Assembly (NCBI RefSeq): GCF_027568395.1
Contig: NZ_JANKZL010000009.1
Coordinates: 62,001-126,000, forward strand
DNA: 64,000 nt
Source: Aminobacter sp. HY435
GTDB taxonomy: Bacteria; Pseudomonadota; Alphaproteobacteria; Rhizobiales; Rhizobiaceae
Reading direction: 5' to 3'
The position numbers and the translations under genes are program-made. Of the stretch, positions 12,668 through 17,066 are shown in pieces; position 1 is the first letter of the stretch; each line of letters begins with the position of its first letter. The notes under the pieces were generated by a model that worked only from the letters and a program-made list of their open reading frames with translations, was not told where the DNA came from and did no database searches.

Positions 12668-14077
12668 CTAGACGCGGGTGCCGCCGACGGTCATCTGGTT
12701 CATCCGGAGATGCGGCTGGCCGACGCCGACCGGTACGCCCTGTCCCGCCTTGCCGCACATGCCGATGCCGGTGTCGAGCTTCATGTCGTTGCCGACCATC
12801 GACACCCGGTGCATGGCGTCCGGCCCGTTGCCGATCAGCATCGCGCCCTTGATCGGCTGCGTCACCTTGCCGTCCTCGATCATGTAGGCCTCGGTGCAGC
12901 CGAACACGAATTTTCCACTGGTGATGTCGACCTGGCCGCCGCCGAACGACACCGCATAGATGCCGTTCTTGACCGACGCGATGATCTCTTCCGGCGTCAT
13001 GTCGCCCGAGGTCATGTAGGTGTTGGTCATCCGCGGCATGGGCTCGTGCGCATAGGATTCGCGACGGCCGTTGCCAGTCGCCTTCATGCCCATCAGGCGT
13101 GCGTTCTGGCGATCCTGCATATAGCCGACCAGCTTGCCGTCCTCGATCAGCACGTTGCGGGCGCTGGGCGTGCCCTCGTCGTCGACGGTGATCGACCCGC
13201 GCCGCTCGGCGATGGTGCCGTCGTCAACCACGGTGACGCCCTTGGCGGCGACCTGCTGTCCCAAAAGCCCGGCGAAGGCCGAGGTCTTCTTGCGGTTGAA
13301 GTCGCCTTCGAGGCCGTGGCCGACCGCTTCATGCAGCATGACGCCCGGCCAGCCGGAAGACAGGACGATGTCGAAGGTCCCGGCCGGTGCGGGGATCGCC
13401 TCGAGATTGACCAGCGCCTGCCGCAGCGCTTCGCTGGCGGCGTTCTTCCAGCTTTCGTCGGCGAGGAATTCATCGAAGCTCTTGCGTCCGCCGGCGCCGT
13501 AGGAGCCGCTTTCCTGGCGGTCGCCGTCACCGACGACGACGGCAACGCTCATCCGCACCAGCGGCCGGATGTCGCGCACGACCTGGCCATCGCCGCGCAG
13601 GATCTCGACATGCTGCCAGGAGGCGGCCAGCGATGCGGTCACCTGACGGACGCGCGGATCCTTGTCACGCAGCCACGCGTCGATCTCCTGCAGGAGCTTG
13701 GCCTTGGCCTCGAAGCCGGGCGAGGTGATCGGGTTCTCCTCGCCATAAAGATGACGGTTGGTGCGGGCGGGCGCATCGGCGAGGGTGCCGGAGTAGCCGC
13801 CCTTGACCGCCGAAACGGCGTCGGACGCCCGCAGCAGCGCAGCCTCCGAAAGCTCGCTTGAATGGGCGTAGCCCGTGGCCTCGCCGGCGACGGCGCGCAG
13901 GCCAAAACCCTGGTCGGTGCTAAAATTGGCCGTCTTTAGCCGGCCGTTGTCGAACATCAGCGCTTCGCCTTCGCGATACTCGAGGAACAGTTCGCCGTCG
14001 TCGGCGCCCTCGATAGTGTTGCTGACGAGCTTGCGTACGCGATCTTCGGAAATGTCGAACTGGCTGACGAGGTTCAT
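12668..14077 (-). CDS. tldD: TldD metalloprotease
   Basis: A 469-residue protein starting MNLVSQFDISEDRV; an upstream open extension to 14188 has no family sequence. The zinc-protease motif HEAVGHGLEGD near residue 260 is intact, followed by the conserved KKTSAFAG, and the C-terminal GGGQVDI, VFGCTEAYMIEDGK and MCGKAGQGVPVGVGQP stretches are family-typical. TldD works with TldE (PmbA) as a heterodimer that digests unfolded peptides, processes microcin-type peptides and affects gyrase-toxin sensitivity. TldE is not in the window, as is usual because the two genes are often unlinked. Transcribed with the downstream sirtuin. Confidence 0.95.
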   Translation of the reverse strand: MNLVSQFDISEDRVRKLVSNTIEGADDGELFLEYREGEALMFDNGRLKTANFSTDQGFGLRAVAGEATGYAHSSELSEAALLRASDAVSAVKGGYSGTLADAPARTNRHLYGEENPITSPGFEAKAKLLQEIDAWLRDKDPRVRQVTASLAASWQHVEILRGDGQVVRDIRPLVRMSVAVVVGDGDRQESGSYGAGGRKSFDEFLADESWKNAASEALRQALVNLEAIPAPAGTFDIVLSSGWPGVMLHEAVGHGLEGDFNRKKTSAFAGLLGQQVAAKGVTVVDDGTIAERRGSITVDDEGTPSARNVLIEDGKLVGYMQDRQNARLMGMKATGNGRRESYAHEPMPRMTNTYMTSGDMTPEEIIASVKNGIYAVSFGGGQVDITSGKFVFGCTEAYMIEDGKVTQPIKGAMLIGNGPDAMHRVSMVGNDMKLDTGIGMCGKAGQGVPVGVGQPHLRMNQMTVGGTRV

Positions 14078-14206
14078 GGCGGGTTCCCGTACTGGATTGT
14101 CGTGATGTAGGGCGGCTTGGCCGCATTCGCAATCGCTGGCGTCGTAAGTGGTCGCGGACAAACCACGCAGGGGCGGAACGCGCTGCAATCAGTAGCTGCG
14201 GCCATT

Positions 14207-14235
14207 TGATTGATGCAAGTATTAAGAGTATTGTG
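14207..14235 (+). promoter_or_regulatory. Candidate sigma-70 promoter of the subtilase module
   Basis: TTGATT (14207-14212), exactly 17 bp spacer, then TATTGT (14230-14235), in a locally AT-rich stretch upstream of the subtilase gene and pointing toward it. Transcription would start near 14242, about 30 bases before the start codon. Read by eye only. Confidence 0.5.
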
Positions 14236-14273
14236 GTTTGGGTTCAATCAGACCGGGTTGAGTGGGGGAGGAA

Positions 14274-15776
14274 ATGGAACAGTTCGTCTTCATTCCGGAC
14301 AAAAGATCCAACAGCGAGCAACTGATGGCGACCCTGCAGGGCGTGGTGGCCGCCGACGCCGAGCTCGATTTTCTCGCAGCGCCAGCCGGCATGGGTGGCG
14401 GGCTGCCGATGGCGGTCGACCCTGTCTCCGGTGGCGGACACCCGCGCGGATTGGAAGTCATCGAGGTGGTTCCGCAAAGCGGAGCTGCGCTGGTCATGAC
14501 GTCGAATGCCGGTCCAGTTCCGGCGGCGGTCGGGGGGACGTTCCATCCCGTCCTCAACTACACACTTGCCGTTGCGGATGTACGCCTCGGTCGGCTCAAG
14601 CTGACCGGTAGCATCGGCCCCACAGGCACCGATTTCCTCAAGATCGTGATTCGATCGGCCGGCGACAACAAGGCGATCGCCAATGCGGTCGCCATATTGG
14701 GACTGAAAGACGGCGGCATGCAGCTGACGGCGGTTTCTGACAACGCCGGAGTGGCGAGGTTCGGCCTCCGTGCGCCGGAGGTAGCTGAGGCGATGCTTGC
14801 AGTTGAGCCCGGGTTTGCCGGCCATTGGGGCCATTTTCGGCGGCGGGCGAGAATCCAGTCGGGAGACGTGGTGCTTCTCGATCCCGTTGATCTAACCAAT
14901 GCGCCGGACACGCTCAGGCACTTCATTCCGCCCGGCGACGCCGGGAGCGGCGCAGGCGTCGTGGTCGGCGTGATCGACAGCGGTGTCGGCCCGCACAAGC
15001 ACCTCACCAACATGAAGGGCGACCCCGACACCTCGATCGGGCACGGCACCCATGTCGCAGGCATCATCGCGGGCAGTGGTACGGGCGGTTACGGCGGTGT
15101 AGCCCCAGGCGCATATATCCGCAGCTACAGGGTCTTCGGCGACCCGACGACCGGCGTCGCCCGCAATTTCGAGATACACCGGGCCATCGAGCAGGCGGTC
15201 GACGACGGTTGCCACCTCATCAATCTCAGCCTCAAGGCTGAGCGGGAAGCCGACCCCGGCTTCGACGACAAGGTGCTGTCGCGAGCCATCGAGGATGCGG
15301 CGGACCATGGCGTGCTAGTCGTTGCCGCCGCCGGCAATGATTTTCGCCGGTTCGTGGCGTTTCCGGCCCGACACCGCGACGCGATAGCGGTTTCGGCACT
15401 GGGGTGGGAGCCGGGCCTGCCGGGCGACGCCTACGATCGCTGGACGATTTCGGGCGATCGTGGCGAAGCGGATCCGGACACCTTCTTCGCCACCTTTTCC
15501 AACGAGGGGCATGCGCCGACGCGCGTCGATCTTGTCGGCCCCGGGGCAGGGGTGGTGTCGACTGTGCCAGGCGATCACTATGCGCCGATGAGCGGCACCT
15601 CGATGGCCTGCCCGGCAATGACCGGGGCGATCGCCAAGGCCCTGGCGGCACATAGTGACGTGCTTGTCATGCCGGCCAACCGTAGCCGGCACGCGAAAAT
15701 GCGTGAACTGGCGTTCGCCAATCTGAAAAGGATGGGCTTCGGCGCGATCCGTGAGGGGAGCGGCATGATCCTTTGA
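14274..15776 (+). CDS. S8 (subtilisin) family serine peptidase without signal peptide
   Basis: A 500-residue protein from ATG 14274 (MEQFVFIPDKRS). A GTG at 14262 in the same frame would add four residues; the GGGAGG before the ATG is unusually close, so the start is uncertain. The catalytic triad is complete: Asp about 235 in GVIDSGVG, His about 257 in GHGTHVAGI, Ser about 443 in SGTSMACP, with oxyanion Asn in AAAGND. The first 210 residues precede the peptidase domain: a short beta-alpha-beta-like start, then a segment (AVAILGLKDGGM, TAVSDNAGVARFGL) resembling an Ig-like or carboxypeptidase-regulatory module. No signal peptide or membrane anchor is seen, so a cytoplasmic enzyme is inferred. 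Followed after 84 bases by a small partner gene. Confidence 0.9.
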   Translation: MEQFVFIPDKRSNSEQLMATLQGVVAADAELDFLAAPAGMGGGLPMAVDPVSGGGHPRGLEVIEVVPQSGAALVMTSNAGPVPAAVGGTFHPVLNYTLAVADVRLGRLKLTGSIGPTGTDFLKIVIRSAGDNKAIANAVAILGLKDGGMQLTAVSDNAGVARFGLRAPEVAEAMLAVEPGFAGHWGHFRRRARIQSGDVVLLDPVDLTNAPDTLRHFIPPGDAGSGAGVVVGVIDSGVGPHKHLTNMKGDPDTSIGHGTHVAGIIAGSGTGGYGGVAPGAYIRSYRVFGDPTTGVARNFEIHRAIEQAVDDGCHLINLSLKAEREADPGFDDKVLSRAIEDAADHGVLVVAAAGNDFRRFVAFPARHRDAIAVSALGWEPGLPGDAYDRWTISGDRGEADPDTFFATFSNEGHAPTRVDLVGPGAGVVSTVPGDHYAPMSGTSMACPAMTGAIAKALAAHSDVLVMPANRSRHAKMRELAFANLKRMGFGAIREGSGMIL

Positions 15777-15860
15777 GCCAAGGCCGGTTGCGACCCGGGC
15801 CGGCCAGCCTGTATCCTTGAGCCACGCCGCGCCCGTGACGTGGCGGTGGAGTGCGCGTGA

Positions 15861-16142
15861 ATGGAAAAGCTGGTGTTGATTCTCAGCAAGTCGATCAAAG
15901 ACAGCGCCAAGATAGCAGGTGAGGTCGATGCCCTGCCCGGGGTTTTCGTGAAGGGGTTTTCGCGCTCGCTTGTCGATGTCGAGGCGTCAGCACCGGAAGC
16001 CGCCGAGCAACTGCGCGGTTATGCCCGCGAACACGGCTTCGAAGTCGAACAAATGTCGGCGCCCACGCTGATCGAGCCGATTTCGCCTTTCGGAAAAGGC
16101 GTGCCGTTTTCGCCATCGAACAGCGAGGAGGAGGAAGGCTAG
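15861..16142 (+). CDS. Small 93-residue protein, possible I9-like propeptide/inhibitor partner of the subtilase
   Basis: Not a family I can name with certainty. It starts MEKLVLILSKS, echoing the MEQFVFIPDK start of the peptidase upstream. The predicted order is beta (KLVLILSK), helix (SAKIAGEVDALPG), beta (VFVKGFSRSLVDVEA), helix (APEAAEQLRGYAREHG), beta (FEVEQMSA), which is the ferredoxin-like layout of S8 propeptides and stand-alone I9 inhibitors. The C-terminal tail is extended and ends in acidic residues (SNSEEEEG), which could thread into an active site. It is on the same strand 84 bases after the peptidase gene, with no terminator between them, so co-expression is likely. Function is inferred from context and topology only. 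Confidence 0.65.
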   Translation: MEKLVLILSKSIKDSAKIAGEVDALPGVFVKGFSRSLVDVEASAPEAAEQLRGYAREHGFEVEQMSAPTLIEPISPFGKGVPFSPSNSEEEEG

Positions 16143-16167
16143 CTGCCTTCCCGGTCCAGCCGGCCGC

Positions 16168-16683
16168 TTACGGCAGCGCGGCGAAGCCTTCGGCGAAACC
16201 GTTCAGGTCGACGGGAATGCCGATACCTTCTTCAGGTGTCTGGAACACGATGAACGTTGCCGACTTGCCGGTCTTGAACGAGTCGAGCAGCGGCTTTTCG
16301 AGGATGACCTCGGCGTAGCAGCCGTCCTGGAAGCAGCGCACGAAATAGGCGCGGCCGATGTCCTTCTGGTCGATGTTGAGGCCCAGGCCGTTCGGCAAAA
16401 GCACGCCAAGCGGCGCGAGCACGCGCAGGATTTCGGCCTTGTTGTCGGCCGTGCGCAACACCACCACCGACAGGCCCATCTCCGGGCGATCCTCGGCGAT
16501 GACATTCTGCATCATCACGCATTGTTCGTTGGTGGCGCCGGCGGGGGTGTCGCAGATGATCGACCATGCGCCGTGCGTGGACTTCACCGTGCCACCCTGC
16601 TGTTGCGCGCCCGCCTGCAGCGGTGCAAGGCACGAAGCGGCGACCAACACCTTCGCCAAGGATCTAAACAGCCCAGACTTCAT
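16168..16683 (-). CDS. Invasion-associated locus B (IalB) family protein
   Basis: A 171-residue exported protein. The start MKSGLFRSLAKVLVAASC was chosen for the GGAG eight bases upstream; residues 1-25 form a Sec signal peptide ending near LQAGAQ. The mature part has the IalB pattern: HGAWSIICDT, QCVMMQNV, then LRVLAPLGVLLPNGL and YFVRCFQDGCYAEV, with paired cysteines that probably form disulfides. IalB is named from Bartonella, but homologs occur across non-pathogenic rhizobia, where the role is unknown. It is convergent with the subtilase module and divergent from the cytochrome oxidase cluster. Confidence 0.88.
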   Translation of the reverse strand: MKSGLFRSLAKVLVAASCLAPLQAGAQQQGGTVKSTHGAWSIICDTPAGATNEQCVMMQNVIAEDRPEMGLSVVVLRTADNKAEILRVLAPLGVLLPNGLGLNIDQKDIGRAYFVRCFQDGCYAEVILEKPLLDSFKTGKSATFIVFQTPEEGIGIPVDLNGFAEGFAALP

Positions 16684-17066
16684 GACGGCTCCATTGCGAA
16701 TCACGACTATTTAGGTCGCGCAGGCAGTAAGTAAATAACAAGACAGCGGCTTCGCCATCCTGAAATCTGTGAATTTCCAGACATTCGAGCCCAATCTGGC
16801 CCGATTTGCGACGTTCCCAAGGGGGCGGCAACGCAATTGCCGCGCAGGCGATGTCGGCTCGCGCTCCCTGCAAGTAGCGCCAAACGCGCCGCAGCGCCAG
16901 CCCGCTGGCCTACGCGCAAAAATGCCGCATGACTAACGCCTCTGCTTCCTTGCGGTTACAAAGAGAGTATGGTTTGAACCTCCGAACGTCTCTGGGATTC
17001 CCGTCCCGGAGCGGCACGATTGTCCATGCGGCAATGTTCGCACGGAAATGGGAGATACTGAGGGCG
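16684..17066. other. Divergent control region between ialB and ctaC
   Basis: About 380 bases without a convincing gene. It must hold the promoters of ialB (leftward) and of the cytochrome oxidase operon (rightward). An in-frame extension of ctaC back to 16929 exists, but ctaC homologs begin at the signal peptide. No promoter could be placed with confidence and no palindrome stands out. Confidence 0.5.

Follow-up and report, generated by a model that had tools for sequence, protein, structure and literature searches.

A subtilase gene without a recognisable export signal and its small downstream gene in Aminobacter sp. HY435: a probable enzyme/regulator pair

In Aeromonas sobria, the gene for the chaperone ORF2 lies just downstream of the gene for the subtilase ASP and is needed for active protease; the cited text reports that the ORF2 C-terminus binds the catalytic site of ASP and inhibits it, and that asp/orf2 operons are found in four further genera (PMC5638518). 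Secreted and kexin-like, ASP is called propeptide-deficient in titles cited in PMC5638518. PopC of Myxococcus xanthus is reported as a 50.8-kDa subtilisin-like protease with no signal peptide and with an N-terminal part without recognisable domains, and PopD forms a complex with PopC and inhibits its secretion until PopD is degraded (PMC6434023). popCD is called an operon, and the site positions given place popD some 1437 bases from where popC starts, which is consistent with abutting genes (PMC4320627). Stand-alone I9-type inhibitors include POIA1, the yeast proteinase B inhibitor, Arabidopsis SPI-1, TgMIC5 and SUB1-ProM; those listed are eukaryotic, and the SUB1-ProM gene adjoins subtilase genes (PMC6993865). 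Reported here is a subtilase gene followed by a small gene in Aminobacter sp. HY435, located in a stretch of 64,000 nucleotides (contig NZ_JANKZL010000009.1, positions 62,001 to 126,000), here termed the window, in whose coordinates all features are given.

The pair consists of the following two genes:

14274 to 15776, plus strand: S8 (subtilase) peptidase, 500 amino acids (aa) (open reading frame; Pfam Peptidase_S8; ribosome-binding sequence before the ATG; ratio of nonsynonymous to synonymous substitution rates, dN/dS)
15861 to 16142, plus strand: small partner protein, 93 aa (open reading frame; alignment; dN/dS; AlphaFold2 model)

The genes are on the same strand and the gap between them (15777-15860) is exactly 84 bases; both the gap and the 93-residue length are as a first-pass annotation of this DNA had given them. 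We consider it fairly probable that the small protein acts in trans on a cytoplasmic subtilase, as its propeptide-like chaperone/inhibitor, and that the pair forms an enzyme/regulator cassette. By analogy with the described systems, the peptidase is probably kept in check by its separately made partner, and the pair most likely works like ASP-ORF2 and PopC-PopD. The partner could instead be an adaptor or specificity subunit, e.g. a NapD-like binder or a localisation factor, with its binding site elsewhere on the peptidase; this is unlikely, as ORF2 and PopD, the nearest bacterial analogues studied by experiment, are reported to inhibit or hold their subtilase.

As with ASP-ORF2, a small gene is situated directly downstream of a protease gene (in 20 of 26 loci, see below), but ASP is secreted and called propeptide-deficient, whereas the window peptidase has no visible signal peptide and about 225 residues before the S8 domain. 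A search of all Protein Data Bank (PDB) chain sequences at E 10 with the partner, as a profile or as a single sequence, gave no match to ORF2, and the structural match of the partner to ORF2 (complex 3wqb) is weak (E = 0.063). The likeness to PopC-PopD is one of description, not of sequence: a subtilase of about 50 kDa without signal peptide, an N-terminal extension and an adjacent small gene downstream. PopC differs in that it is reported to be enriched in the periplasm and secreted. The partner resembles the stand-alone I9-type inhibitors in being a separate small protein of propeptide topology that would act on a subtilase, but these are eukaryotic and the partner shows no I9 sequence match. 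The partner model also aligns structurally to a classical subtilisin propeptide (PF05922; 3cnq_P); such propeptides are encoded in cis and cleaved, whereas the partner is encoded in trans. A literature search found no closer bacterial family of this description, although subscription journals were mostly outside the search and absence is not proven. ASP-ORF2 (PMC5638518) and PopC-PopD (PMC6434023, PMC4320627) are experimental bacterial precedents for the proposal, and neither is named in the first-pass annotation.

The 500-aa protein matches Pfam Peptidase_S8 (PF00082) above the cut-off (E = 5.5e-36). D235, H257, N355 and S443, i.e. the full subtilase triad and the oxyanion Asn, are invariant across a 12-row peptidase alignment, and they are situated in the catalytic domain:

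14949 to 15680, plus strand: subtilase catalytic domain, with D235 at 14976, H257 at 15042, N355 at 15336 and S443 at 15600

A GTG at 14262 is an alternative start (open reading frame 14262-15776), but the ATG at 14274 is judged better because it is preceded by GGGGGAGGAA, a ribosome-binding sequence. The locus had earlier been started at 14207, which is 55-67 bases ahead of the actual peptidase gene. The N-terminus (MEQFVFIPDKRSN...) displays no hydrophobic export signal or signal peptide, as judged by eye only. The first-pass annotation of a complete S8 peptidase lacking a signal peptide is therefore borne out, with this proviso on the signal peptide. A scan of the locus for promoters and terminators found none.

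The small open reading frame is a real gene that evolves faster than the peptidase gene but is constrained, judging from substitution patterns. Its dN/dS values are 0.33/1.19 against the copy in Aminobacter niigataensis DSM 7050 (L009; ratio about 0.28) and 0.63/1.55 against L006, and that of the peptidase is 0.18/1.34 against L009; as dS exceeds 1 these figures are rough. The two genes, their coding constraint, the predicted fold of the partner, the tight linkage and the joint presence or absence of the pair are supported directly.

The pair is inserted between two genes that are conserved in A. niigataensis:

12668 to 14077, minus strand: TldD-like protease gene, bounding the insertion site on the left (start placed from the L009 comparison; 95% identical in L009)
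16168 to 16704, minus strand: IalB-like gene, bounding the insertion site on the right (92% identical in L009)

In A. niigataensis DSM 7050 the pair is found at the same locus with tldD and ialB flanking; the peptidase is 74% identical and the small open reading frame, of 80 aa, about 60% identical. Single-sequence searches of 199 genomes of the taxonomic family found the small protein in two (E 1e-3) and the peptidase in two (E 1e-40), and these are the same two genomes, own genome included. The 1.5-kb flanks of ialB were examined in 12 readily available genomes of the family, including two that belong to the window's genus. The pair is present together in one (G177, next to ialB) and absent together in 11, where tldD is the next searched gene beside ialB; ctaC is beside ialB in 11 of the 12. 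At the 11 empty sites neither gene nor any recognisable trace of one is present, the best matches being at chance level (peptidase E = 0.96, small protein E = 1.7). The proposed adjacent, separate small protein is thus co-inherited with the peptidase in these genomes. The tldD-ialB slot (window 14078-16167) is variable, with the peptidase pair in some family genomes and little in others; one genome of the same genus (L093, about 2040-2560) has a GNAT-like acetyltransferase gene there, by eye.

The peptidase is sparsely distributed. At E 1e-30 it is found in 5 of 397 genomes of the order, and at E 1e-50 in 3 of 289 genomes of the class and 3 of 299 of the phylum (own genome included in each case). 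Around two wider matches, 4 of 197 and 1 of 28 family genomes carry it at E 1e-60. On plasmids, 119 records match the peptidase at E 1e-5; 12 loci of likely family members were examined, and six further plasmid S8 loci (L105-L110) served as non-family controls. Among phages, 17 of 50,697 records match, without any match extending over 80% of the query. From viral contigs came 57 loci limited to S8 domains (36% identity in the best segment), and these were used as controls and alignment rows. A scan of genome contigs with the single small protein found no relative, and against plasmids it gave one weak match (E = 0.7).

Scoring with a peptidase profile gave 34 entries; without L001 (110 bits) and six duplicates (L003, L005, L006, L007, L021 and L030) there are 27 loci above 140 bits, of which 26 are evaluable, L028 being cut off right after the gene. 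A small gene is found directly downstream of the peptidase in 20 of the 26. Eighteen are typical (the window, L008, L009, L010, L011, L012, L013, L014, L015, L017, L018, L019, L022, L024, L031, L032, L033 and L035), the peptidase frame of L024 being interrupted, and two are atypical, L016 with an open reading frame without a clear start and L029 with a longer protein. The L029 partner is a 203-211-aa protein on the minus strand, directly after the S8 gene and with a C-terminal extension; its first 75 residues were taken as the small module. One locus, L026, has the small gene upstream, an approximately 83-aa partner-like open reading frame on the minus strand that was recognised by eye and not recovered by profile, which suggests that the order of the pair is not fixed. 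No small gene is found in five loci (L020, L023, L025, L027 and L034). L025 and L027 are clear family members, therefore the small gene is not universal; homologous peptidases without it are nevertheless a minority. In remote loci a partner was assigned from where the gene lies, how long it is and its strand/helix order as read by eye; some loci are closely related to each other. Judged from annotation only, a coding sequence of 65-105 aa on the same strand within 150 nt downstream is present in 8 of the 12 family plasmid loci (L015, L017, L018, L019, L031, L032, L033 and L035) versus none of the six controls, with limits that were chosen after the family had been seen and plasmid gene tables that are incomplete.

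The small proteins are similar enough for homology to be supported in part of the set, on sequence grounds, and the rest are positional analogues of similar size. Profiles with one subgroup left out at a time were compared with 3,457 open reading frames from 33 family entries and 62 control loci. Three of the four members of the window's subgroup were recovered at E 0.005-0.012 (best control 0.63), L011 at E = 3.4e-8 (best control 2.4), L016 at 0.076 (control 0.65) and L014 at 1.5e-5 (control 0.23). The rest of the L014 subgroup do not beat controls, partners of the Paracoccus type and of the L013/L022 type score at control level, and L012, L029, L026 and L035 were not usefully recovered. With a partner profile, 7 of 249 order genomes match; the four strong matches (E 4e-11 or better) are known partners beside S8 genes and are rows of the model, and the three weak ones (E 0.002-0.005) are situated in larger frames. 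Distances of small proteins and peptidases are correlated (Mantel r 0.92, 0 of 10,000 permutations, 12 pairs), a result that joint descent alone would also give. Such short proteins, with 15-22% identity to the window protein outside its own subgroup, might be thought unrelated neighbours with a separate function. This is highly improbable: 20 of 26 loci share the position, the flanking genes varying among those that are annotated, and peptidase and small gene are jointly present and jointly absent.

The AlphaFold2 model of the small protein (pLDDT 77.9, residues 1-60 at 82-91 by tens) displays the elements E2-7, H15-23, E28-33, E37-42, H45-58 and E61-64, in agreement with the beta-alpha-beta-beta-alpha-beta order predicted earlier. 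A fold search with the partner returned a tied list of generic ferredoxin-like matches, a topology common to many unrelated proteins, and because of the ties no family was named. Structure prediction thus upholds the propeptide-like topology but matches only a generic fold. By sequence the proposed I9 likeness fails: a Pfam search of the 93-aa protein gave no family even at E 10, and none of 12 small-protein members match Inhibitor_I9 (PF05922). A PF05922 scan gave nothing for this family in 115 class genomes, with 3 of 14 control genomes positive. Since Pfam, PDB sequences and the PF05922 genome scan all yielded nothing, I9 identity by sequence was rejected. A model of peptidase and partner as a read-through fusion (pLDDT 47.7) is too poor for an interface to be read; a fold search with it confirmed the subtilisin core and nothing further.

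The fold also bears on whether the small protein might be the dedicated substrate of the peptidase, i.e. a precursor of a signalling or bacteriocin-like peptide and not a regulator. The subtilase has NCBIfam matches, all below cut-off, that include the maturation proteases PatA and QhpE, with mycosin highest, and in L023, a remote relative, a LanC-like gene was recognised by eye ahead of the S8 gene; but the partner is predicted to fold as one compact domain to residue 64 and not as leader plus core, the window protein contains no cysteine, and no modifying enzyme or exporter was recognised by eye among adjacent open reading frames. A substrate role is therefore quite unlikely.

A conserved element follows the last strand of the small protein:

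16068 to 16091, plus strand: LIEPISPF element (small-protein alignment), a candidate active-site tail

LxEPxSPF/W is the conserved end in the window partner and its three nearest relatives. The acidic tail SEEEEG, which the first-pass annotation had likened to propeptides, is present in the window protein but absent from these three relatives; it is not a family feature and thus cannot be central.

The peptidase carries about 225 residues ahead of its S8 domain, which begins at residue 226. Two domains appear to be present in this region:

14274 to 14579, plus strand: N-terminal domain, residues 1-102, opening with an F/YVxxP-like strand (12-row alignment; weak profile likeness to the small protein)
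14586 to 14888, plus strand: middle beta-rich, carboxypeptidase-regulatory-like domain, residues 105-205 (Pfam in homologues; strands in a low-confidence model)

With E allowed up to 10, Pfam CarboxypepD_reg matches 5 of 12 homologues (best E = 1.1e-6) and not the window protein itself. The N-terminal domain is of low confidence in the fusion model. In an hhalign comparison, columns 26-71 of the partner profile match peptidase residues 52-99 with a probability of 54 (E = 1.2e-4), as compared with 0.1 for the middle domain. The earlier reading was thus incomplete in that the peptidase retains its own N-terminal domain of about 100 residues, weakly similar to the partner. The profile alignment weakly suggests that the echo between the two protein starts (MEKLVLI and MEQFVFI), which the first-pass annotation had pointed out, stems from a kinship between a module in cis and a module in trans; the start itself is outside the aligned columns.

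Several family members have further genes beside them. In the Rhizobium sp. CIAT894 plasmid (L017:4961-7093) and in Agrobacterium pTiCFBP5877 (L031:4965-7067) an approximately 700-aa 'DNA/RNA non-specific endonuclease' gene is found right after the pair, and upstream of the pTiCFBP5877 copy lies a CHAT-domain gene as well. A conjugative plasmid from Cupriavidus (L016:1226-3252) has a second S8 peptidase and its own overlapping 192-aa hypothetical gene ahead of the family member, with an ATP-binding protein gene further upstream. The remote relative without a small gene (L023:47-2742) hints, through its LanC-like neighbour, at a peptide-maturation cluster. Genome G000 carries three further S8 genes outside the family, on contigs C1, C22 and C26 (L001, L004 and L002); near them only one of the best control matches is found, at chance level (E = 3.3, L001).

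A toxin-antidote or anti-phage cassette, in which a harmful cytoplasmic protease is restrained by the partner until triggered, would fit the patchy presence in a variable slot, the plasmid-borne members beside CHAT or nuclease genes and the matches to the PADLOC 'subtilase' model. That model, however, matches all 12 family members, as do IetS models, which looks like generic S8 similarity, and both sets of matches were set aside for this reason. Inspection by eye of the genes next to the pair in the window showed no other defence gene, and some family members have no partner. Such a cassette is very unlikely.

For a propeptide-like chaperone/inhibitor, we infer the binding, the inhibition or chaperoning, the role of the tail and the trigger as follows. 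The peptidase would be made without a recognisable export signal, and the partner would serve in trans as a propeptide-like subunit. Its ferredoxin-like domain may pack on the catalytic domain, helping it to fold and/or blocking it, and the conserved LxEPxSPF/W segment may occupy the substrate cleft. Once the partner is removed, whether the peptidase does this itself or some other protease does, the enzyme would become active or be released.

A subtilase that lacks a signal peptide has to be controlled within the cell, and the stand-alone I9 inhibitors treated in PMC6993865, which are well characterised, are eukaryotic. The linked, fast-evolving partner gene is found in Alpha- and Betaproteobacteria and is labelled only 'hypothetical protein' in the plasmid records examined. 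A more tentative and rather doubtful proposal is that of a widespread, unnamed family of proteobacterial cytoplasmic subtilases with two propeptide-like modules, one fixed and apparently retained in cis at the N-terminus and a fast-evolving one in trans that acts as a removable brake; if true, ASP-ORF2 and PopC-PopD would become special cases of a general bacterial subtilase control. With many simple pairs, propeptide action in trans, its specificity and its evolution from cis propeptides would become testable, and the pairs would place ASP-ORF2 and PopC-PopD in a wider frame.
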